Below are positions 43,539-54,072 of a stretch of DNA of 64,000 bases, piece after piece. Numbering within the stretch: the stretch's first letter is position 1; every line of letters begins with the position of its first letter. Origin of the DNA: Bizionia myxarmorum (GTDB taxonomy: Bacteria > Bacteroidota > Bacteroidia > Flavobacteriales > Flavobacteriaceae); assembly GCF_008086205.1 (NCBI RefSeq), contig NZ_VSKK01000005.1, forward strand, positions 62,001-126,000, in the 5' to 3' direction. The notes under the pieces are model-generated. The model did no database searches, was not told where the DNA came from, and was given only the letters and a program-made list of their open reading frames with translations. Position numbers and translations under genes: made by a program.

Positions 43539-45269
43539 TTACTTCTCATACCAAAACCAATCATCCGTTAGTTTTTCAACAAAATCATAGCGTTCTTTCA
43601 TAAAACTGTCGTTTGCTGCATCGTTATCTGCTTCATAGGGAAATACTGAAAATTCGCTAAAACTTATTATAAAATCATTTTGGTTGTTAAAGCCAAAACG
43701 AATTTGTTTTAAGGGCTTTTGCAGGTTATCTAAATTACATCCTTTTTCCAGATATAAGTTTCCTTTATAAACAGAGAAGCAAGTTTCACCATTTTTTAAA
43801 ATGGTTTCTAAACCATCTCTATATGCATCATACTCAAATTTTGAATAAGCTGTTTTCCTGATCTCATTTAAATTGGCCCAGCTAGGACTATTACTTTGTT
43901 TACTATGGTAAATCAAAACATAATATCGTGGATATCCACCAATAATATGTTCATTATTTAATGTAACCCCTATTTTCTCTTCGGTTGGAAAACCATGTTC
44001 GCCTATTAGTTCTATTAAGCTTATGTCATTTATTTCAGTGATGGCAACAGCATCTGCATGACTATATTCACCTTTTGCTCGACCAACATAGTATTTTTGG
44101 TCTAAATCTACAATTGCTTTTAATTTTTTAATTAAAACAGTGTCTTGGGTTTTAAGAAAAACCTCATGAAAATCATCAAAATTATTAAGAAAATCCTGCC
44201 ATTCTATTTGTTTTTCAATTCTATTAAAAATAGGCGCTTCAAAATAGGCTAAACCGACACCTTTCGCTACTAATTTTTCACTCCAAATAATAGCTGTTTT
44301 ATAATCTCTGGAAAGGATAGCAGAACGAACAGCATTATGAATATCTCGAGCATACACATAGTGATTACTCGTTAAAAAATTATTATATTCCTTTGCAGCA
44401 GCACCATATTGCTTTCTTAAAATAAACTGCTCTGCTTTATCAATAACCTGGTAATATTCTGGTACAATAATCACTTTAGGTGTTTGCCATAAAACAGCCA
44501 CATTTTTTCTAATAATAGGTGTTGGCTGTTTATCTTTGAATGCTATTGTTTCTAAATTTTTTATTTTTGGTTTATCATTCAAGAAAACCATGTCTCCAAT
44601 ATTAAAAATTTCAGCAAAACTACTTCCTAAACCAAACGCTAATACAGAATTTTCATTAATGGTTGCCTCTATAGAGAATTTTTCAATATATGGTTCGCTT
44701 GTTTCAAAACGAACCGTATTTTTTAAATAAAAAGCTTTAAGTGAGTCAAGTACAAGATCACCTTCAACACGCTCACCATGATAGGTTATGTAATTTTTTT
44801 CTTTAAAAATTGTATGTTCAACATGAACATAAGCTAATGTGTCTTTTACCTCGCCAATTGCTACCTGAATTTGATTATCCACTCCCTGCCATTGCCTATT
44901 AGATTTCACCTTTCCCGAAATTCTTATTTTATTATCATTTTCATCAAAACTACAAGACTCAATTTCAACATGAATATTATTCATCGTGAAATCTTCAATA
45001 AATGTTGTATTTCTCCCATCATGTAAATGAAACTCAACCTCATAGTTTAAAATACCTTTATAGTCTTTTATATCTACAAAATACGGTATAGAATCACCGT
45101 TTTTAAACAGCATATAATCATCCATATCCCACCAAAAATCATAGGTATCTGGTTTCATTTTGTGAGCGTCCAAATCATTTTGACTGAATGTTTTTAAGTT
45201 TTGAGAAGAAACAAATTGAAAAAACATCAATAAAATACTCGAAAGGATAAGCTGGTTAGTTATTTTCAT
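43539..45269 (-). CDS. Secreted protein of unknown function, DUF6624-like C-terminal part
   Basis: A 576-aa protein with a signal peptide (about 1-23, ending FVSSQ). The first half is strand-rich with no recognised domain. A helical segment at about 280-340 (AEQFILRKQYGAAAKEYNNF) looks like one or two TPR-type repeats. The stretch IVDLDQKYYVGRA ... LIELIGEHGFPTEEKIG ... YYVLIYHSKQ resembles the DUF6624 pattern, though not certainly. Expected to be periplasmic or outer-membrane associated. It is divergent from the PIG-L gene and appears to stand alone. Confidence 0.6.
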   Translation of the reverse strand: MKITNQLILSSILLMFFQFVSSQNLKTFSQNDLDAHKMKPDTYDFWWDMDDYMLFKNGDSIPYFVDIKDYKGILNYEVEFHLHDGRNTTFIEDFTMNNIHVEIESCSFDENDNKIRISGKVKSNRQWQGVDNQIQVAIGEVKDTLAYVHVEHTIFKEKNYITYHGERVEGDLVLDSLKAFYLKNTVRFETSEPYIEKFSIEATINENSVLAFGLGSSFAEIFNIGDMVFLNDKPKIKNLETIAFKDKQPTPIIRKNVAVLWQTPKVIIVPEYYQVIDKAEQFILRKQYGAAAKEYNNFLTSNHYVYARDIHNAVRSAILSRDYKTAIIWSEKLVAKGVGLAYFEAPIFNRIEKQIEWQDFLNNFDDFHEVFLKTQDTVLIKKLKAIVDLDQKYYVGRAKGEYSHADAVAITEINDISLIELIGEHGFPTEEKIGVTLNNEHIIGGYPRYYVLIYHSKQSNSPSWANLNEIRKTAYSKFEYDAYRDGLETILKNGETCFSVYKGNLYLEKGCNLDNLQKPLKQIRFGFNNQNDFIISFSEFSVFPYEADNDAANDSFMKERYDFVEKLTDDWFWYEK

Positions 45270-45392
45270 GTTTAAAAATGATTAATAGTTTAATAATGAG
45301 GCGTAAAATTACTTTTATGAAATATTTTACTATCAATTTCCCTGCCAAAAGTTAAAAAACACTTAAATCCAATCATCTTGAAAACTGTTTAT

Positions 45393-45400
45393 TATATTTG
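45393..45400 (+). promoter_or_regulatory. -7 box of the PIG-L gene
   Basis: TATATTTG is a full TAnnTTTG match, about 20 bases before the ATG at 45421. Confidence 0.45.
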
Positions 45401-45420
45401 GTCTTTTAGCAAAATGCACT

Positions 45421-47919
45421 ATGATTAAACAATTACGATACCTCTTTTTTATTGCAATAAGTACCACACTTACCTACGCACAACAACCCAAAAAACCTAA
45501 TACTTCCGAAATTTACGAGTCTATAAAAAAATTGAAATTTTTAGGATCTGTTTTATATGTTGCGGCACATCCTGACGATGAAAATACCCGAATGATTTCA
45601 TATGTGGCTAACGGTGTGAAAGCCCGAACCGCCTATTTATCCTTAACACGAGGCGATGGTGGACAAAATTTAATTGGTTCAGAAATTCGTGAACTTTTAG
45701 GCGTTATTAGAACTCAAGAACTTTTAACGGCCCGCGCTATTGACGGTGGCGAACAGTTTTTTACACGTGCTAACGATTTTGGTTATTCGAAACATCCAGA
45801 TGAAACTTTAGAGATTTGGAATAAAGAAGCCGTTTTATCGGATGTAGTTTTGGCTATTCGTCAATTTCAACCGGATATTATTATCAACCGTTTTGATCAT
45901 AGAAGTCCAGGGAAAACGCACGGTCACCATACCAGTTCTGCCATGTTGAGTTTGGAAGCTTTTGATTTGGCGGGCGATTCAAGCGTTTATCCAAAACAAT
46001 TACAATCTACAGAAACTTGGCAAGCACAACGTATATTTTTCAACACGTCTTGGTGGTTTTACGGTAGTCAAGAAAAATTTGATAAAGCGGATAAAAGCAG
46101 TTTAATTGGTTTAGATACTGGGATTTATTTTCCTTCTAGCGGTTTAAGTAATCCTGAAATTGCAGCTTTAAGCCGAAGCCAGCACAAATCTCAAGGTTTT
46201 GGAAATACAGGAACGCGCGGTAGTGAAATAGAATATATTGAATTAATAAAAGGCACCATGCCCAAAGTTCAATCCAATTTATTTGAAGGGATTGATACCA
46301 CTTGGAATCGCGTTAAAAATGGTGCTACCATTGGCATTATATTAAAAGAGGTTGAAGCAAACTACGATTTTAAAAATCCGTCAGCTTCCCTTCCCAAATT
46401 AGTAGAAGCGTATGCTGCCATTCAAAATCTAGAAAATGGCCATTGGAAAAGGATTAAAACTCAAGAAATTAAAGCCATTATTGAAGCCTGTTCTGGATTA
46501 TATGTAGAAGCTGCCGCGCAAACCAATCAAGCCACAGCCAATGAAACTATAAATCTGAATTTGGAAATCATAAACAGAAGTACTTCCGCCATAATTTTGG
46601 AGTCTTTCATCAATCCGAATGGATTAATGATTGAAAAAAACATGGAGCTAATTAATAATCTATCTATAAATATAAAAGAGACTTTTCATATTCCTAGTCT
46701 GGATAAAGCGCATATTACAACACCTTATTGGCTTACTGAAACCGGAACTTTGGGTATGTACAAAGTATCTGATGCATCTTTAATAGGAAAGCCTGAAACA
46801 CCAGAATATTTTGAGGTTACCTTTAACATAAAAATAGCTGGCATTTCAATTCCGTTTACCAAACCCGTTATTTATAAAACCAATGATCCTGTTAAAGGTG
46901 AAGTTTATAAACCGTTTGAAATTATACCAGAAGCTTCAGCCAGAATTGCCGAAAAAGTCATCATTTTTGAAACGGATAATTCGAAATCAATTCCGGTGAG
47001 TGTTAAAGCTGGCAGAAATGGTTTAGAGGGAACTATGAAATTATCAGTTCCTACAGGTTGGATTGTTTCACCTGAAAATCATAACATTAACATTGTTAAT
47101 AAAGGTGCCCAACAAACTGTTTTATTTACTGTGACACCTCCAAATAATCAAAGCGAAGGCTCTATTAAACCCATCATTTCAGTTAATGGCAACACCTACT
47201 CCAACGAACTTATAGAAATAGATTACGATCATATTCCGTATCAAACGGTATTATTACCTAGTGAAAGTAAAGTGGTGCGATTAGACATTAAAAAGAAAGG
47301 TGAAAATATCGCTTATATTGCTGGTGCTGGCGACGTTGTTCCTGAAAGTTTGCAGCAAATTGGCTACAAAGTAACCACTTTGAGTCCGGATGCCATTACA
47401 CCCGAAAATTTAAGCCGTTTTGATGCCGTAGTTATTGGCATTCGAGCATATAATACAGTTGAAACTTTAAAATTCAAACAAAAAGTGCTTTTCGACTTCG
47501 TAAAAAAAGGTGGAAATATGGTGGTTCAGTATAATACAAGTCGCGGACTAGTGACAGATGAATTAGCACCTTACCAGTTAGAATTATCTAGCGATCGTGT
47601 TACCGATGAATTTGCGGATGTCAAATTTCTAGCGCCAAATCATCCTGTTTTAAATATTCCAAATAAAATTACGGCATCCGATTTTGAAAATTGGACCCAA
47701 GAGCGTGGATTATATTTTCCCGATTCTTGGAGTAAAGACTTCACCCCTATTTTATCTATGCATGATAAAGGCGAATCTGCTAAAAAGGGAAGTTTATTAG
47801 TCGCTAAATATGGCGAAGGCTATTACATCTATACGGGTTTAAGTTTCTTTAGAGAATTTCCAGCTGGTGTTTCCGGCGCATATCGCTTATTTGCAAATAT
47901 CCTATCTTTAGGAAAATAA
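45421..47919 (+). CDS. PIG-L deacetylase with ThuA/GATase-like C-terminal domain
   Basis: An 832-aa exported protein (signal peptide ending TTLTYAQQ). Residues about 38-290 are a PIG-L/LmbE zinc deacetylase domain with the metal motif AAHPDDENTR and the third ligand in RSPGKTHGHHTSS. A middle beta region at about 360-600 resembles NEW3-type Ig-like domains (VSVKAGRNGLEGTMKLSVPTGW). The C-terminal about 630-832 looks like a ThuA/class I glutamine amidotransferase-like fold (FDAVVIGIRAYNTVETL ... GGNMVVQYNTS). It probably deacetylates an N-acetyl sugar outside the cytoplasm. A small membrane peptide and a sodium:solute symporter gene follow at once, suggesting coupled hydrolysis and uptake. Confidence 0.85.
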   Translation: MIKQLRYLFFIAISTTLTYAQQPKKPNTSEIYESIKKLKFLGSVLYVAAHPDDENTRMISYVANGVKARTAYLSLTRGDGGQNLIGSEIRELLGVIRTQELLTARAIDGGEQFFTRANDFGYSKHPDETLEIWNKEAVLSDVVLAIRQFQPDIIINRFDHRSPGKTHGHHTSSAMLSLEAFDLAGDSSVYPKQLQSTETWQAQRIFFNTSWWFYGSQEKFDKADKSSLIGLDTGIYFPSSGLSNPEIAALSRSQHKSQGFGNTGTRGSEIEYIELIKGTMPKVQSNLFEGIDTTWNRVKNGATIGIILKEVEANYDFKNPSASLPKLVEAYAAIQNLENGHWKRIKTQEIKAIIEACSGLYVEAAAQTNQATANETINLNLEIINRSTSAIILESFINPNGLMIEKNMELINNLSINIKETFHIPSLDKAHITTPYWLTETGTLGMYKVSDASLIGKPETPEYFEVTFNIKIAGISIPFTKPVIYKTNDPVKGEVYKPFEIIPEASARIAEKVIIFETDNSKSIPVSVKAGRNGLEGTMKLSVPTGWIVSPENHNINIVNKGAQQTVLFTVTPPNNQSEGSIKPIISVNGNTYSNELIEIDYDHIPYQTVLLPSESKVVRLDIKKKGENIAYIAGAGDVVPESLQQIGYKVTTLSPDAITPENLSRFDAVVIGIRAYNTVETLKFKQKVLFDFVKKGGNMVVQYNTSRGLVTDELAPYQLELSSDRVTDEFADVKFLAPNHPVLNIPNKITASDFENWTQERGLYFPDSWSKDFTPILSMHDKGESAKKGSLLVAKYGEGYYIYTGLSFFREFPAGVSGAYRLFANILSLGK

Positions 47920-47939
47920 CACTAAAAACCTACAACGCC

Positions 47940-48041
47940 ATGAAACCAGAAAAATACAAATGGGAAAGAATGTACACATTCGTGCTGGTGGCTAATGCCA
48001 TCTATTTTATTGTATTTTATTTCATCATGCAAGCCTTTTAA
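47940..48041 (+). CDS. 33-aa single-helix membrane peptide before the symporter
   Basis: ATG 47940 to TAA 48039-48041 encodes a basic and aromatic start (MKPEKYKWERMYTF) followed by one transmembrane helix (VLVANAIYFIVFYFIMQAF). The symporter start codon is 2 bases after its stop, and it starts 20 bases after the PIG-L gene, so translation coupling is likely. The positive-inside start and full-length helix argue that it is a real small protein, perhaps an accessory subunit of the symporter. This is inferred. Confidence 0.65.
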   Translation: MKPEKYKWERMYTFVLVANAIYFIVFYFIMQAF

Positions 48042-48043
48042 CT

Positions 48044-49735
48044 ATGCAAACTCTCGATTGGATTGTATTATCCCTTACCTTATTCACAATTGTCGCTTAT
48101 GGTACCTGGCAAACGCGTGGTAGCAAAAATGTGCAAGATTATTTAAAAGGAGGCAATACCTCTAAATGGTATACCATTGGTTTATCCGTCATGGCAACTC
48201 AAGCTAGTGCTATTACTTTTTTATCTACACCTGGCCAAGCCTTTAATGATGGGATGGGTTTTGTACAATTTTATTTCGGATTACCAATTGCTATGGTGGT
48301 GATTTGTATGGTGTTTATTCCACTCTATCACCGACTTAATGTATATACGGCCTACGAATTTCTTGAAGATCGTTTCGACTTAAAAACGCGCTCTTTAACA
48401 GCCATTCTATTCTTAATTCAACGCGGATTAGCTGCCGGAATCACCATTTTTGCGCCGGCGATTATTTTATCCGTTGTACTGGGTTGGAATCTCTTATTAC
48501 TGAATATAATTATCGGAATACTCGTAATTATATACACGGTTTCCGGCGGAACAAAGGCAGTAAATGTCACACAAAAGCATCAAATGGTGGTGATATTCAC
48601 GGGAATGATTATTGCTTTTATTTTAATTGTGAATAAACTTCCTGAAAACATCACCTTTAGTAATGCATTAGATATTGCTGGCGCGAGCGGCAAAATGGAG
48701 ATATTAGATTTCTCTTTTGATTTGAATAATCGCTACACCTTTTGGAGTGGTATTATTGGTGGAACCTTTTTAATGTTGTCTTACTTCGGAACCGATCAAA
48801 GTCAAGTACAACGTTATTTATCTGGGAAATCTGTTAGAGAAATGCGTTTGGGTCTAATTTTTAACGGACTTTTTAAAGTGCCCATGCAGTTTTTTATTCT
48901 GTTGGTGGGTGTCATGGTTTTCGTGTTTTATCAATTTAATAAAGCACCGATAAACTTTAATCCTGTTGCTTCGGAAATGGTTTTAAATACAGAATATGCG
49001 GATGAATTTGAAGGACTGGAAGCAGAACAAGATCTTATTTTTGATACCAAACAATTGTTAATTGCCGATTTTATTGCCAATAAAAGTGAAGCGTCAATTG
49101 CAGGCGTCGCTTCGGCAAATGCCAAAAATGATAGTATTCGCGCTAGAGCCCGCTATTTAATTGATAAAGCTGGTGAGGTTAAAGGCGTTAAGGTGGAAAG
49201 TAATGATAAGGATTACGTGTTTATCAACTTTATTTTAAACAACTTACCTCGAGGCTTAATTGGGCTTTTATTAGCCGTTATTTTAAGTGCAGCCATGTCT
49301 AGCACCTCTAGTGAATTAAATGCACTGGCATCCACTACTACCATCGATTTATACAAACGGAACACCGCAGAAAAAACAGATGCCGAGATGGTAAAAGTAT
49401 CTCAATGGTTTACTTTAGGCTGGGGCGTTATGGCTATTTTAGTCGCTTGTGTAGCCAATTTAGCGGAAAACTTAATTCAATTAGTAAATATTATTGGATC
49501 CATTTTCTACGGAAATGTGCTTGGTATTTTCTTGTTGGCATTTTTCGTGAAAGCTGTTAAAGGTCGTGCTGTTTTTATTGCAGCTATCATCACGCAAATG
49601 CTAGTAATTAGCCTGTTTCTTTTAGATCAGTACGAATATATTAATCTACCGTTTTTATGGTTGAATTTTGTGGGTTGTGCTATTGTTATGGGTATTGCCA
49701 TCTTGATTCAGTTTACTAGTAGGAAGCCAGAATAA
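48044..49735 (+). CDS. Sodium:solute symporter (SSS family)
   Basis: A 563-aa transporter with about 13-14 helices. It opens with the SSS pattern (GSKNVQDYLKGGNTSKWYTIGLSVMATQASAITFLSTPGQAF) and carries AVILSAAMSSTSSELNALASTTTIDLYKR, where the Ser/Ala-rich helix 8 contributes to the sodium site. A hydrophilic insert at about 310-375 is larger than in PutP. The substrate is unknown. Neighbourhood with a PIG-L/ThuA-like enzyme suggests an amino sugar, sugar or related compound. SSS genes of this group in Bacteroidota are often called sodium:solute symporters without a substrate. Confidence 0.9.
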   Translation: MQTLDWIVLSLTLFTIVAYGTWQTRGSKNVQDYLKGGNTSKWYTIGLSVMATQASAITFLSTPGQAFNDGMGFVQFYFGLPIAMVVICMVFIPLYHRLNVYTAYEFLEDRFDLKTRSLTAILFLIQRGLAAGITIFAPAIILSVVLGWNLLLLNIIIGILVIIYTVSGGTKAVNVTQKHQMVVIFTGMIIAFILIVNKLPENITFSNALDIAGASGKMEILDFSFDLNNRYTFWSGIIGGTFLMLSYFGTDQSQVQRYLSGKSVREMRLGLIFNGLFKVPMQFFILLVGVMVFVFYQFNKAPINFNPVASEMVLNTEYADEFEGLEAEQDLIFDTKQLLIADFIANKSEASIAGVASANAKNDSIRARARYLIDKAGEVKGVKVESNDKDYVFINFILNNLPRGLIGLLLAVILSAAMSSTSSELNALASTTTIDLYKRNTAEKTDAEMVKVSQWFTLGWGVMAILVACVANLAENLIQLVNIIGSIFYGNVLGIFLLAFFVKAVKGRAVFIAAIITQMLVISLFLLDQYEYINLPFLWLNFVGCAIVMGIAILIQFTSRKPE

Positions 49736-49811
49736 AGGTCTTTTCATTTATAATTTTTAAATTTTCAAAAATCTTAAATATCTAGTTTACATAACTTTTT
49801 GTAATATTTAC

Positions 49812-49842
49812 TTGTCTAAATGTAAAGTTTATTTTACATTTG
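49812..49842 (+). promoter_or_regulatory. Promoter with embedded inverted-repeat operator
   Basis: TTG at 49812-49814, a 20-base spacer, then TACATTTG at 49835-49842. A perfect inverted repeat AAATGTAAA (49818-49826) / TTTACATTT (49833-49841) with a 6-base spacer covers the spacer and the -7 box. A protein bound here would block transcription of the membrane protein-Xre pair. Confidence 0.65.
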
Positions 49843-49867
49843 ATAAATTAATTTAAAGTCGACAGTT

Positions 49868-50344
49868 ATGAAAACAAATTTTTTACTACCTCATAAATTC
49901 AAGGTGTTTGGTTGGGTACTTCTTATTCTTGGTTTAATTTTAGGCATATTATTGTACGCTACAGATTTCGAACCAAACATTTTTACAACTAACGTTTTAA
50001 GTGTTTATAATGGTGATAGTCTTTTCACTGGACGTGACGAAGGCTGGTTTAAGATTATTGAAAATGGGATTATTGATGAACTTTCAGCTTTAGCTATTAT
50101 TTTAGGAGGTTTACTAGTAGGTTTTACCAAAGAAAAGGTAGAAGATGAATTTATTTACAAACTCCGAACAGAATCCCTTGTTTGGGCCATTATTGTAAAT
50201 TATACTGTTCTTGCATTGGCTATTATTTTCGTTTATGATATGCTATTTTTTAATATGATGATATTTAATATGTTTACTCCGCTTTTCATCTTTATTATAC
50301 GTTTCAATTTCTTAAAACTAAAATCCTCTACCCATGACGAATAA
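49868..50344 (+). CDS. Four-helix membrane protein paired with an Xre regulator
   Basis: A 158-aa protein with helices at about 14-33, 70-90, 103-123 and 127-147, and a short extracytoplasmic stretch (ATDFEPNIFTTNVLSVYNGD) between the first two. No named domain recognised. It overlaps the start of the following Xre-type gene by 11 bases. Pairs of a small membrane protein and a compact Cro/CI-like regulator recur across bacteria, often as self-regulated sensor-like units, but the signal is unknown. Confidence 0.7.
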   Translation: MKTNFLLPHKFKVFGWVLLILGLILGILLYATDFEPNIFTTNVLSVYNGDSLFTGRDEGWFKIIENGIIDELSALAIILGGLLVGFTKEKVEDEFIYKLRTESLVWAIIVNYTVLALAIIFVYDMLFFNMMIFNMFTPLFIFIIRFNFLKLKSSTHDE

Positions 50345-50534
50345 TCTTAAAGTAGAACGTGCAAGACATAATATGACGCAAGCAGATTTAGCAGAAGCGA
50401 TTGGCGTTTCCCGACAATCCATAAATGCCATGGAAAAAAACAAATATGTACCATCAACAGTTTTAGCATTAAAACTTTCCAGACTTTTTAAAAAACCAGT
50501 GGAAGAACTATTCCAATTAGAAGCTGGAGATTAA
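50334..50534 (+). CDS. Small Xre/Cro-CI-type regulator
   Basis: A 66-aa protein that is almost only a helix-turn-helix domain: VERARHNMTQADLAEAIGVSRQSINAMEKNKYVPSTVLALKLSRLFKKPVEELF. It matches the short YgzD/YozG-like group encoded next to membrane proteins. It starts within the end of the membrane protein gene (ATG in the sequence CCATGACGA), so translation is coupled. Its likely target is the inverted repeat at 49818-49841, giving autorepression. Confidence 0.88.
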   Translation: MTNNLKVERARHNMTQADLAEAIGVSRQSINAMEKNKYVPSTVLALKLSRLFKKPVEELFQLEAGD

Positions 50535-50540
50535 AAATAA

Positions 50541-50575
50541 AAAAAAAAGCGACTCGGTTGTACCAAGTCGCTTTT
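50541..50575. terminator. Terminator between the Xre gene and the DUF2911 gene
   Basis: AAAAGCGACT and AGTCGCTTTT form the stem, with an inner GG/CC pair. The minus strand carries a long T-run after the stem, so it mainly ends the DUF2911 transcript; the plus strand has a short T4 tail. Confidence 0.8.
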
Positions 50576-50598
50576 ACTATTCATAAACAAACTAGTTA

Positions 50599-51447
50599 CT
50601 AGTTAGCTCCCCATTCTTTTAATGATGCCTCATTAAATTTTACATACTGCATGTTACCAGCTTCTTTTGATGCTTCTAACGATTTTTTAGCTAATTCAAT
50701 AGCTCCTTTAGTATCGCCAGCTTTTGCATAAATTAAGGACTGTTGTCTTAATTGATAAAAAGCAGGTTTATCCATCATACTCATAGCTTTATCAATCCAC
50801 TCTTTAGCTTGCTTAATATCTTTACCTTCACTATAATAATAAGCTGCAGATGCATAATAATCACTTGCTTTTGGATTGTTGTTTAAAGCTTCATTGATTG
50901 AAACTAAAACTTTATCATCCGTAGGAACTGTAAAAGGAACACCAACATAAGTATTCTCCCACATCATTTCTAAAGTCGCACCACCAGTTTGAATATTATT
51001 AATATCAATAGTAAACGTTTCTACCGTAAAAGGAATAGTCTCTGCTTTTACTTTAGCAATAGCAGCTACTTTACTATCATCCCATTTTTCTGGAGTTCCC
51101 CAGTTTTCAGTGTCTGTATAGAAATATATTTCCCACATAGATTCTCCTGGCTTGGAAAAAATAGCATAAGAACCTGGCTTTAATGTGTAATTATTAATGG
51201 TTACAGGATCACTAAAAGTAATTATTGTGTTTTTGTTAGCACCAGTTCTCCACATGGTATCGTAAGCTTCAAGGCCTCCAAATATTTTTCTTCCTTTTAC
51301 TCCCGGACGTGCATATTCAATATTTATAGTTGTTAAACCTACCATTTGCTCCACTTTGCTTAATGGACTTGGCTCTGGCGTTGTAACTTGTGCTTGTATG
51401 CTAAAAGCCAATACAAAAGCCGCAAGCGTTAAAAGTGATTTTTTCAT
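50599..51447 (-). CDS. DUF2911 domain secreted protein
   Basis: A 282-aa protein from ATG 51447 (MKKSLLTLAAFVLAFSIQAQ signal peptide); a TTG 20 codons upstream is rejected. The DUF2911 body includes LSKVEQMVGLTTINIEYARPGVKGRKIFGGLEAYDTMWRTGANKNTIITFSDPVTINN-type sequence at about 30-90, with the recurring WRTGANxxT motif. A C-terminal helical part (about 190-282) has TPR-like helices (AYYYSEGKDIKQAKEWIDKA, KAGDTKGAIELAKKSLEAS). Exported, function unknown, common in Bacteroidota. Confidence 0.88.
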   Translation of the reverse strand: MKKSLLTLAAFVLAFSIQAQVTTPEPSPLSKVEQMVGLTTINIEYARPGVKGRKIFGGLEAYDTMWRTGANKNTIITFSDPVTINNYTLKPGSYAIFSKPGESMWEIYFYTDTENWGTPEKWDDSKVAAIAKVKAETIPFTVETFTIDINNIQTGGATLEMMWENTYVGVPFTVPTDDKVLVSINEALNNNPKASDYYASAAYYYSEGKDIKQAKEWIDKAMSMMDKPAFYQLRQQSLIYAKAGDTKGAIELAKKSLEASKEAGNMQYVKFNEASLKEWGAN

Positions 51448-51540
51448 AGTAATACGATTTATTAAGTTGTTTTCTAAGATTTCAAAATTAAGCCGAATCG
51501 GCGTCAAGGCTTGTTAATAAAAGCCTAAATTAAATTATAG

Positions 51541-51975
51541 TTAGTTTTTGATGTATTCAAAATCCCATTTGCTATACACACTGCGTTGAATCTGACCAAA
51601 ATTTTCTAAATGATTCACATATTGATCTGTTGTTAAAATAGTCTTCAATTCGCCATTCATTTTACCCACTAAAAGGTTGAATCTTTCATGAATCTCATCG
51701 CGCGTGTACTTTTTATCAGCATCATTTAATCGGCTCATATCAAATACATATTTGTTTACAATACGATCATAATCATCCCGTAAATCCTCATTTAATTTCA
51801 TGTCATTAACCCGATCGTAAAACCAACGTTGCATATTAGCACGTTCTTCCATAGTATAAAGTGTATCCACTTTAGATTCTTGTAATTCAGTTTCTTTTAG
51901 CGTTTTATTTTGCGCGAAACTGACATGAGCCACCATTAAAAGAAGGCCAATGTGAAAAGTATTCTTTAGTTTCAT
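51541..51975 (-). CDS. Exported hypothetical protein
   Basis: A 144-aa protein with a signal peptide (about 1-21, HVSFAQN) and a helical mature part (MNLED-like helices: LRDDYDRIVNKYVFDMSRLNDADKKYTRDEIHERFNLLVGKMNGELKTI). The pattern resembles small periplasmic helical proteins of the Spy/LTXXQ-like type, but the LTxxQ motif itself is not clear (ILTTDQYVNHL near the end may be a relative). Divergent from the TetR-like gene. Function unknown. Confidence 0.65.
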   Translation of the reverse strand: MKLKNTFHIGLLLMVAHVSFAQNKTLKETELQESKVDTLYTMEERANMQRWFYDRVNDMKLNEDLRDDYDRIVNKYVFDMSRLNDADKKYTRDEIHERFNLLVGKMNGELKTILTTDQYVNHLENFGQIQRSVYSKWDFEYIKN

Positions 51976-52048
51976 TTATTTAAATTTTGAATACGAATAT
52001 AATCAATTTTCCTATTGCTCATGCAATTATACACTATTCCCAAAAATA

Positions 52049-52092
52049 TTGTTTAACTAATAACTGAAATCATTAAACATTTCGTATCTTTG
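52049..52092 (+). promoter_or_regulatory. Promoter/operator P1 of photobiology operon 1
   Basis: The sequence begins TTGTTTAACTAATAACTG and ends with -7 box TATCTTTG (52085-52092). Arms TGTTTAA (52050-52056) and TTAAACA (52073-52079) form an inverted repeat with centres about two helical turns apart. It is 38/44 identical, with no gaps, to the sequence at 60595-60638. The -7 box also rules out the TTG at 52090 as the TetR start. Confidence 0.75.
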
Positions 52093-52110
52093 TACTACAA
52101 TTCAAGCATT

Positions 52111-52755
52111 ATGGCAAAAAAGAAAAACATTACAGACACCAAGCTCATTTCCTTTTATATGGATTACGTTTTAACGCACAATCATGCACCAAAAACAGTG
52201 TATGCCTTTGCAAAAGACAATAATTTTGATGAAGCTGATTTTTATAAAAACTACGCCTCTTTTGACGCTCTAGAGAAATCTATTTTCAAAGTGTTCTTCT
52301 ATAATTCAATTGAAATATTAGAAAAAAGTGAGGAATATCAACATTTTGACGCTAGAAATAAATTATTAAGTTTCTATTTCACATTTTTTGAAAACTTAAC
52401 GGCAAACAGAAGTTATGTGGTTTATGCGCTTAAAGATAAAGGTATGAAATCTTTGAGTTCACTTTCAGAACTGCGTCACGCTTTCAAAAAGTATATTGAT
52501 ATGCTGGATATTGAAACTTTAGATATTAAGGAACCACGAATTGTTAAAATTCAGGATTTTTCCAAGCAAGAATCGTTTTGGATTCAGTTCATGATGATTA
52601 TGAAATTTTGGTTGGATGATACATCGCCTTCCTTTGAAAAAACAGATATATTTATTGAGAAATCTGTGCATGCGGGTTTCGATTTAATGGATATTAAACC
52701 TTTAAAAAGTGTTATCGATTTGGGCAAATTTATCTTTAAAGAAAAGATGCAATAG
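52111..52755 (+). CDS. TetR-like transcription regulator
   Basis: A 214-aa protein from ATG 52111 (MAKKKNITDTKLISFYMDYVL). The N-terminal region has a degenerate TetR helix-turn-helix (TVYAFAKDNNFDEADFYKNYASFDALEKSIF), and the remainder is an all-helical ligand/dimer domain. It heads an operon with a UbiB-type kinase 6 bases downstream and the photolyase genes. As the only regulator in the cluster, it is the leading candidate to bind the twin operators, but a MerR/LitR/CarH-type light regulator elsewhere in the genome could do so. Confidence 0.78.
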   Translation: MAKKKNITDTKLISFYMDYVLTHNHAPKTVYAFAKDNNFDEADFYKNYASFDALEKSIFKVFFYNSIEILEKSEEYQHFDARNKLLSFYFTFFENLTANRSYVVYALKDKGMKSLSSLSELRHAFKKYIDMLDIETLDIKEPRIVKIQDFSKQESFWIQFMMIMKFWLDDTSPSFEKTDIFIEKSVHAGFDLMDIKPLKSVIDLGKFIFKEKMQ

Positions 52756-52761
52756 AAACGT

Positions 52762-54072
52762 ATGAAAACAATTGATAATATTCCGACAAGTAAAATACAA
52801 CGTGCTAGCAAACTGGTAAAAACAGGTGCTAAAGTGGGTGTTAATTACTTGAAATATTATGGTGAAAAACTGACTAAAACAGAGTTGGAAGCCAAAGAAA
52901 ATTTAAATAAAAACAATGCTGAAGATATTTATGATGGCTTAAAGCAATTAAAAGGAAGCGCTCTAAAAGTTGCACAAATGTTGAGCATGGAAAAGAGTAT
53001 TTTACCACAAGCGTATGTGGAAAAATTCTCTTTAGCCCAATTTTCGGTTCCACCTTTATCGCCACCATTGGTTATAAAAACCTTTAAAAAATACTTCGGG
53101 AAAGCACCTGAAGCCATTTTTGATACCTTCAATTCATCGTCAGTTAACGCTGCCAGTATTGGTCAAGTGCATGTTGCCGAAAAAAATGGTAAAAAACTAG
53201 CGGTTAAAATCCAATATCCAGGAATTGCTGAAAGTATCCAATCAGATTTAGCTATGGTTAAGCCCATTGCCATTAAAATGTTCAATATTAAAGGAAAAGA
53301 TTCTGATAAATATTTTAAAGAAGTTGAAAATAAATTGGTCGAAGAAACCAATTACATTTTAGAATTGGAACAAAGCCAAGAAATTGCGGCGGCTTGTGCT
53401 CATATTCCGCATTTAAAATTCCCAGAATATTACCCAGAATTATCATCTGAACGTATTATTACGATGGATTATATGACGGGCGATCATTTATCTGAATTTA
53501 CAGCTAAAAATACGGATCAAGAAATGGCAAACCAAATTGGTCAGTCACTTTGGGATTTCTATATGTTTCAAATTCATAAATTGAAAAAAGTGCATGCGGA
53601 TCCGCATCCTGGAAACTTTCTTATTTCAAAAGAAGGAAATTTAATTGCTTTGGATTTTGGTTGTATGAAAACCATTCCCGAGGATTTCTATGTGCCCTAT
53701 TTTGAATTAGCAGAAGAAGAAAGCATCAATAATCCGGCTATTTTTCGCGAGAAAATGTTTGAATTAGAAATTTTACGCAAGGATGATTCACCGGAAGAAT
53801 TAGAGTTTTTCTCCAATATGTTCCATGAAATGTTAAGTATTTTCACCCAACCGTTTCATTCTGAAATTTTCGATTTTTCAGACCTCTCTTTTTTTGGAAG
53901 AATTGCGGAATTAGGTGAGAAATATTCTAAAAATACAGATTTAAGAAAAATGAACGGGAATCGCGGTTCGGAGCATTTCATTTACATCAACCGAACATTT
54001 TTTGGTTTGTATAATTTAATGTTCGATTTAAAAGCGCAAGGTGTTAAAATCAATAATTTTCATACCTTATGA
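52762..54072 (+). CDS. AarF/ABC1/UbiB-family atypical kinase
   Basis: A 436-aa protein-kinase-like protein. It shows the family alanine-rich/KxGQ-like region (LKGSALKVAQMLS), the second signature AASIGQVHVAEKNGKKLAVKIQYPG, the catalytic VHADPHPGNFLIS and the metal-binding LDFGCMK. Unlike UbiB of E. coli, no C-terminal transmembrane helices are seen. Family members support quinone or isoprenoid lipid metabolism, though mechanisms vary. Its last bases overlap the flavin reductase-like gene. Confidence 0.9.
   Translation: MKTIDNIPTSKIQRASKLVKTGAKVGVNYLKYYGEKLTKTELEAKENLNKNNAEDIYDGLKQLKGSALKVAQMLSMEKSILPQAYVEKFSLAQFSVPPLSPPLVIKTFKKYFGKAPEAIFDTFNSSSVNAASIGQVHVAEKNGKKLAVKIQYPGIAESIQSDLAMVKPIAIKMFNIKGKDSDKYFKEVENKLVEETNYILELEQSQEIAAACAHIPHLKFPEYYPELSSERIITMDYMTGDHLSEFTAKNTDQEMANQIGQSLWDFYMFQIHKLKKVHADPHPGNFLISKEGNLIALDFGCMKTIPEDFYVPYFELAEEESINNPAIFREKMFELEILRKDDSPEELEFFSNMFHEMLSIFTQPFHSEIFDFSDLSFFGRIAELGEKYSKNTDLRKMNGNRGSEHFIYINRTFFGLYNLMFDLKAQGVKINNFHTL

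Follow-up and report, generated by a model that had tools for sequence, protein, structure and literature searches.

The window analysed here, a stretch of 64 kb, is part of a 3.36 Mb genome (G000:C16:62001–126000) and carries three closely spaced genes on its forward strand. The first (45421–47919) specifies a PIG-L family deacetylase (PF02585, 51.9 bits against a cut-off of 28.2) with an apparent N-terminal signal peptide, as judged by eye. Its stop codon is followed after 20 nt by the ATG (47940) of a short frame (47940–48041), which ends in a TAA at 48039–48041 and specifies a 33 amino acid, single-helix membrane peptide (MKPEKYKWERMYTFVLVANAIYFIVFYFIMQAF). The third gene (48044–49735) specifies a 563 amino acid SSS (SLC5-type) sodium:solute symporter and begins 2 nt beyond the peptide stop, in a TAA-CT-ATG junction (48039–48046). 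These coordinates agree with the sequence-only reading, which had placed an ATG-to-stop frame between the PIG-L and symporter genes, 2 nt before the symporter ATG. Further downstream, at 49868–50534, lie the genes for a 158 amino acid protein with several hydrophobic segments and for an overlapping 66 amino acid HTH_3 regulator.

The peptide profile revealed a single copy in G000, and a search of annotated plasmid records with the peptide gave as its sole match a partial one at 31% identity. An Rfam scan of nucleotides 45000–50000 returned no match at the gathering threshold, and promoter and terminator scans were near shuffle level (19 found against 19.1 expected; 5 found against 3.5 expected). 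A terminator-like hairpin does occur within the peptide frame (47987–48002); it was considered as an attenuator and rejected, its six pairs being retained in just 5 of 100 family loci.

The symporter was recognized by PF00474 (136.5 bits, cut-off 22.8) and TIGR00813 (235.3 bits, cut-off 184) and was modelled with AlphaFold2 from an alignment of 45 rows (pLDDT 89.4, pTM 0.85). The model has a LeuT-type fold with 13 predicted transmembrane segments by our own helix count, its closest folds being SiaT (Z=43.1, 2.2 Å over 461 residues), SMCT1 (Z=40.2) and an engineered NIS (Z=40.0), with SGLT2-MAP17 structures reaching Z=37.0. In sequence the symporter comes closest, among solved proteins, to SMVT, NIS and SMCT1. 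The last model helix ends at residue 559, and the alignment to SGLT2 stops at residue 549; among 121 complete symporters the distance from the LWLN motif to the C-terminus has a median of 30 residues, with 95% at or below 47 and the longest at 79. A long predicted helical hairpin (residues ~319–380; 48998–49183) lies between the eighth and ninth segments, and PF00474 matches the protein in two stretches flanking it. For the substrate we can offer a guess, an acetylated amino-sugar or its cleavage product, hinted at by the upstream deacetylase.

Of 199 family genomes, 177 have the symporter at E≤1e-100. From 106 of these we read 109 loci; 30 of the genomes were the best matches, 60 were picked from the listing and 16 were taken by handle. 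Leaving out a fragment (L139) and two paralogues at 34–36% (L138 and L140) gave 106 orthologue loci. A homologous single-helix ORF of about 30–45 amino acids lies directly upstream of the symporter in 102 of the 106. The count becomes 103 if L067 is included, where the peptide is found 370 nt upstream with a 122 amino acid ORF intervening. L137, which lies at a contig end, was scored as a miss, since a stop codon breaks the peptide frame close to its start; at L084 and L128 the peptide was not found upstream of the symporter orthologue. The C-terminal signature of PIG-L precedes the peptide in 97 of the 102 loci. The peptide was also present in all 80 of the closest named relatives, many of whose species are already among the genomes above; these are mostly Flavobacteriaceae genera plus some MAGs named only to phylum. 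The ORF inserted at L067 (nucleotides 1132–1500 of the locus; genome G087) sits exactly between peptide and symporter with tight spacing on both sides. In the one assembly of genome G122 (L137, L139), the frame interruption near the peptide start is accompanied by symporter pieces on two contigs.

Searches with peptide profiles extended this picture. In the class, 45 of 295 genomes were matched. The window's own locus was one of 30 that were fetched, and in 29 of these a symporter homologue (46–100% identity) was the next gene. The gene upstream was, by eye, something other than PIG-L in five of the 30 (L148, L151, L157, L165 and L166), the symporter still being next. A wider profile used on the phylum sample matched 102 of 296 genomes with 105 hits, 95 of which precede a symporter orthologue by −1 to 94 nt. 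Conservation of the frame upstream of homologous symporters, the check suggested with the sequence-only reading, thus holds both in the family (102/106) and in the phylum (95 of 105 hits), and that reading is supported. The remaining ten hits comprise five genomes with the symporter 15–108 kb away, one hit beside a symporter remnant and four that are chance-like; the latter were dropped (G709, G546, G298:C24, and G311:C66, which lies inside a 181 amino acid ORF). With the symporter found at E≤1e-110 in 114 of the 296 phylum genomes, the presence table reads 99 with both, 15 with the symporter alone, three with the peptide alone and 179 with neither (Fisher p=7e-58, uncorrected for phylogeny). 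Twelve of the 15 symporter genomes lacking a profile hit were read (all except G702, G717 and G721): eight show a single-helix ORF just upstream, by eye perhaps a divergent relative, and four (L285, L287, L288 and L290) have no single-helix ORF upstream of the symporter. Genome G737 carries two peptide-symporter pairs (G737:C1:21448 and G737:C1:3845703), one with an internal TAG in its symporter.

In several genomes the peptide is kept away from the symporter. Four genomes of genus g374 (G518, G509, G530 and G565) have it about 15 kb from the symporter, the loci having been read in three (L279, L296, L280/L305) and G530 assessed by place only; in G718 the distance is 108 kb. All of these distances come from one assembly each. 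In none of the five was a second copy of the peptide found ahead of the symporter. The gene before the unlinked peptide of G518 is, by eye, not PIG-L. In this genome (L280:621–737) and its relatives the peptide stands beside an opposite-strand gene which by eye resembles a DASS-type transporter. The peptide of G305 (L170) follows PIG-L with no symporter adjoining, the symporter being on another contig. The same separation was seen in its genus mate G395 (peptide at G395:C20:298850–298939), and three other genomes of their family have peptide and symporter adjacent. At L278 (G510) an intact peptide lies between PIG-L and what appears to be a remnant of the symporter, with N- and C-terminal pieces.

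The homologous peptides range from 26 to 54 amino acids (245 peptides, some species being represented twice). Comparison of 61 members shows no variation at Y12 and F26 and very little at W8, N19 and Y22; in a phylum set of 36 members, Y12 never varies and W8 and F26 are almost constant. An ATG start was counted in 98 of 100 loci by a script which prefers ATG, a figure that was not counted as evidence. Among 50 disjoint nearest pairs pS was 0.50 and pN 0.27, with pN below pS in 48 pairs. Using 15 ungapped pairs, pS/pN was 0.49/0.21 in frame, 0.28/0.27 in the +1 frame and 0.18/0.29 in the +2 frame. Because substitution is constrained in frame, unlike in the shifted frames, the frame is very probably translated into a product that matters. 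Judged by this pattern of substitution and by its conserved motif, frame and position, 47940–48041 is a real protein-coding gene kept by selection across the Bacteroidota sample.

Peptide and symporter genes are usually 0–15 nt apart or overlapping. With symporter starts picked by script, the gap is 1 nt in 75, 3 nt in 45 and 2 nt in 18 of 183 family-level loci, and a 4-nt overlap (−4 nt) was seen in 34 of 60 loci of the phylum sample. Such short spacing suggests that translation of the two genes may be coupled by termination-reinitiation. As read from the sequence, the window peptide has a basic start and one hydrophobic helix, features that recur in its relatives: lysine and arginine are in excess before the helix in 241 of 245 homologous peptides (mean K+R 3.2 before and 0.5 after). 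By the positive-inside rule, the peptide is therefore predicted to be oriented N-in/C-out.

Small membrane proteins that partner a transporter are already known, including for SSS transporters (TIGR03647). The TIGR03647 family (Na_symport_sm, 'sodium/substrate symporter small subunit'), which we take to go with TIGR03648 symporters, is like the peptide specified by a gene directly upstream of an SSS gene; its proteins differ in having about 77–86 amino acids, two hydrophobic segments and other SSS partners, as against 33 residues and one segment here. At 20 other PF00474 loci in six genomes (19 over the cut-off) none was found by eye to have the peptide, one place in G168 being unread. Three of the 20 (L104, L105 and L106) have instead an 84–86 amino acid two-segment protein directly upstream, and two of these three were scanned (L104 and L106), giving TIGR03647 at 115 and 126 bits (cut-off 26.05). 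Neither the window peptide nor any of 61 relatives (at E≤1) matched TIGR03647. By profile, size and number of predicted helices, then, the peptide family is separate from TIGR03647.

Against Pfam and NCBIfam, the window peptide and sets of 61 and 36 relatives showed scattered weak matches only. Those to DUF2976 (PF11190)/TIGR03745 involved 11 of 61 members (best E=0.0014) and six of 36 (best E=0.0029) in the Pfam runs, and eight of 61 (best E=0.002) in a further run, with none for the window peptide; they are taken as generic similarity between predicted helices. A profile search of the PDB with the peptide gave two hits at chance level (E=0.28 and 0.31). YjcH/DUF485 with ActP and YhdT/DUF997 with PanF are small membrane proteins encoded beside SSS permeases and are longer than the peptide; neither DUF485 nor DUF997 was among the Pfam matches of the 61 and 36 peptides. 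KdpF is another small bacterial protein acting on a transporter. AcrZ, MgtS, MgtU, MgtR, SgrT and MntS, partners of transporters with about 28–49 amino acids (PMC10710835), are similar in size to the peptide but act on different transporter families, and the sole SSS entry in the available part of that source is SbtA with the PII-type SbtB, which is not a small membrane protein. A literature search found no description of the peptide family. The words accessory, subunit, auxiliary and small protein do not appear in the main text, as available, of a 2021 review of prokaryotic SSS transporters (PMC7918813), nor do the terms sought in the accessible part of PMC10903887.

We propose that, in one Bacteroidota orthologous group of SSS transporters, the peptide acts as a dedicated accessory subunit, aiding folding, stability or activity, and we put the chance of this at roughly two in three. 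Translational coupling would have the peptide synthesized immediately ahead of the symporter; it would then insert as a single helix, the basic N-terminus staying inside, pack laterally against the 13-helix symporter and help it to fold, to remain stable or to keep its activity. Physical binding between the two is most likely, because the helix is encoded just before the transporter, tracks it through the phylum sample and is kept when unlinked. On balance the symporter would be the partner, since in five of 30 class loci another gene takes the place of PIG-L and the symporter is retained, L170 being the sole opposite case. Counting against a subunit are the peptide-less orthologues (L084, L128, L285, L287, L288 and L290) and the peptide of G305, which lies beside PIG-L with the symporter on another contig.

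The closest analogy is with MAP17 (PDZK1IP1), also a protein with one transmembrane helix, which is an auxiliary subunit needed by an SLC5 symporter (human SGLT2). MAP17 is longer, has a PDZ-binding tail and is oriented opposite to the orientation predicted for the peptide. It is eukaryotic and no sequence relation to the peptide was found, no MAP17 family being among the Pfam matches listed for the window peptide and its 61 and 36 relatives. In the part of PMC10803289 available, MAP17 is described as binding TM13 of SGLT2, in a stabilizing, scaffold-like role. The symporter here differs from SGLT2 in having no counterpart of TM13, the alignment ending at residue 549. By analogy, the peptide may have a stabilizing or folding role such as MAP17 has for SGLT2.

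Covariation was examined as a possible pointer to a contact site. Mean-field DCA on 233 peptide-symporter pairs (Neff 110 at 80% identity) placed the pair of peptide M30 and symporter I220 third in the list of couplings counted. This pair, taken by itself in a Pagel-type test, reached an LRT of 50.4; the background for that test, taken from 15 of 548 columns, was itself inflated (median 9.3 for 4 degrees of freedom). With tree-independent contrasts no pair survived correction. For M30, the strongest contrast out of 454 tests was with SSS209 (8 to 0, p=0.008); positions 201, 210 and 227 of the same loop were among the next best, and I220 was outside the best 12; the loop around SSS209 as a whole ranked at 0.116. 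This loss of covariation after tree control counts against claiming a contact site, and we take the signal between M30 and the symporter loop as a hint, not as evidence.

Among the other readings, the peptide could be a regulator of the SgrT, MgtR or MgtS type, one which inhibits symporter activity or directs symporter turnover, and not a constitutive subunit. Regulators of this type are mostly under separate regulation. The constant short spacing to the symporter gene suggests steady co-production and speaks against such a role, while small proteins of this kind are documented for other bacterial transporters in the part of PMC10710835 available; we regard this as possible though unlikely.

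A more specific form of partnership would be an SSS transporter split between two genes, with the peptide supplying the fourteenth helix that the larger chain lacks. TM13 of SGLT-type proteins follows an intracellular loop and runs from inside to outside, an orientation which the predicted N-in/C-out peptide would match, and the symporter itself stops after 13 helices. The SGLT-type relatives have 14, the last being TM13 in the numbering of PMC10803289, as far as that source was available. Against this, the peptide-less orthologue L128 gains no fourteenth helix. Further SSS proteins with 13 helices, SiaT and NIS among them, have been solved as single chains, and we find the idea rather doubtful.

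If the frame were a leader, its translation would only deliver ribosomes by termination-reinitiation or attenuate the mRNA, and the peptide would have no role. The stop-start distance of 2 nt, the frequent 4-nt overlap in the phylum sample and the terminator-like hairpin at 47987–48002 would fit such an arrangement, but the hairpin pairs are rarely kept, the amino acid sequence is under selection and W, Y and F are nearly invariant over the phylum set. The peptide also persists 15–108 kb from the symporter, on another contig or behind an inserted ORF, and this retention without linkage is an argument against a purely cis-acting leader. A leader without a role is thus improbable; translational coupling may be an added function of the peptide gene.

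Finally, the peptide might serve the PIG-L deacetylase as a membrane anchor or export helper, with the symporter merely adjoining. The PIG-L signature directly upstream in most family loci and the G305 arrangement (L170) favour this, but in the five class loci with another gene upstream the symporter still follows, the unlinked peptide of G518 comes (by eye) after a non-PIG-L gene and the tight spacing is to the symporter, so that we think it very improbable. A chance origin of the ORF in the intergenic gap, short ORFs being common (70 of at least 25 amino acids overlap 44000–53000), is refuted by the conservation of motif, frame and position and by the in-frame purifying selection.

An SSS transporter is generally regarded as a machine built from a single polypeptide. 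A one-helix partner over the Bacteroidota sample, as the accessory-subunit reading has it, would be a genetically tractable bacterial model for assembly of the SGLT2-MAP17 type; were the peptide instead a fourteenth helix, the phylum would have kept a two-gene SSS transporter. In either case the peptide profile (A3, 36 members) is ready for a gene group that has no matching Pfam or NCBIfam model.
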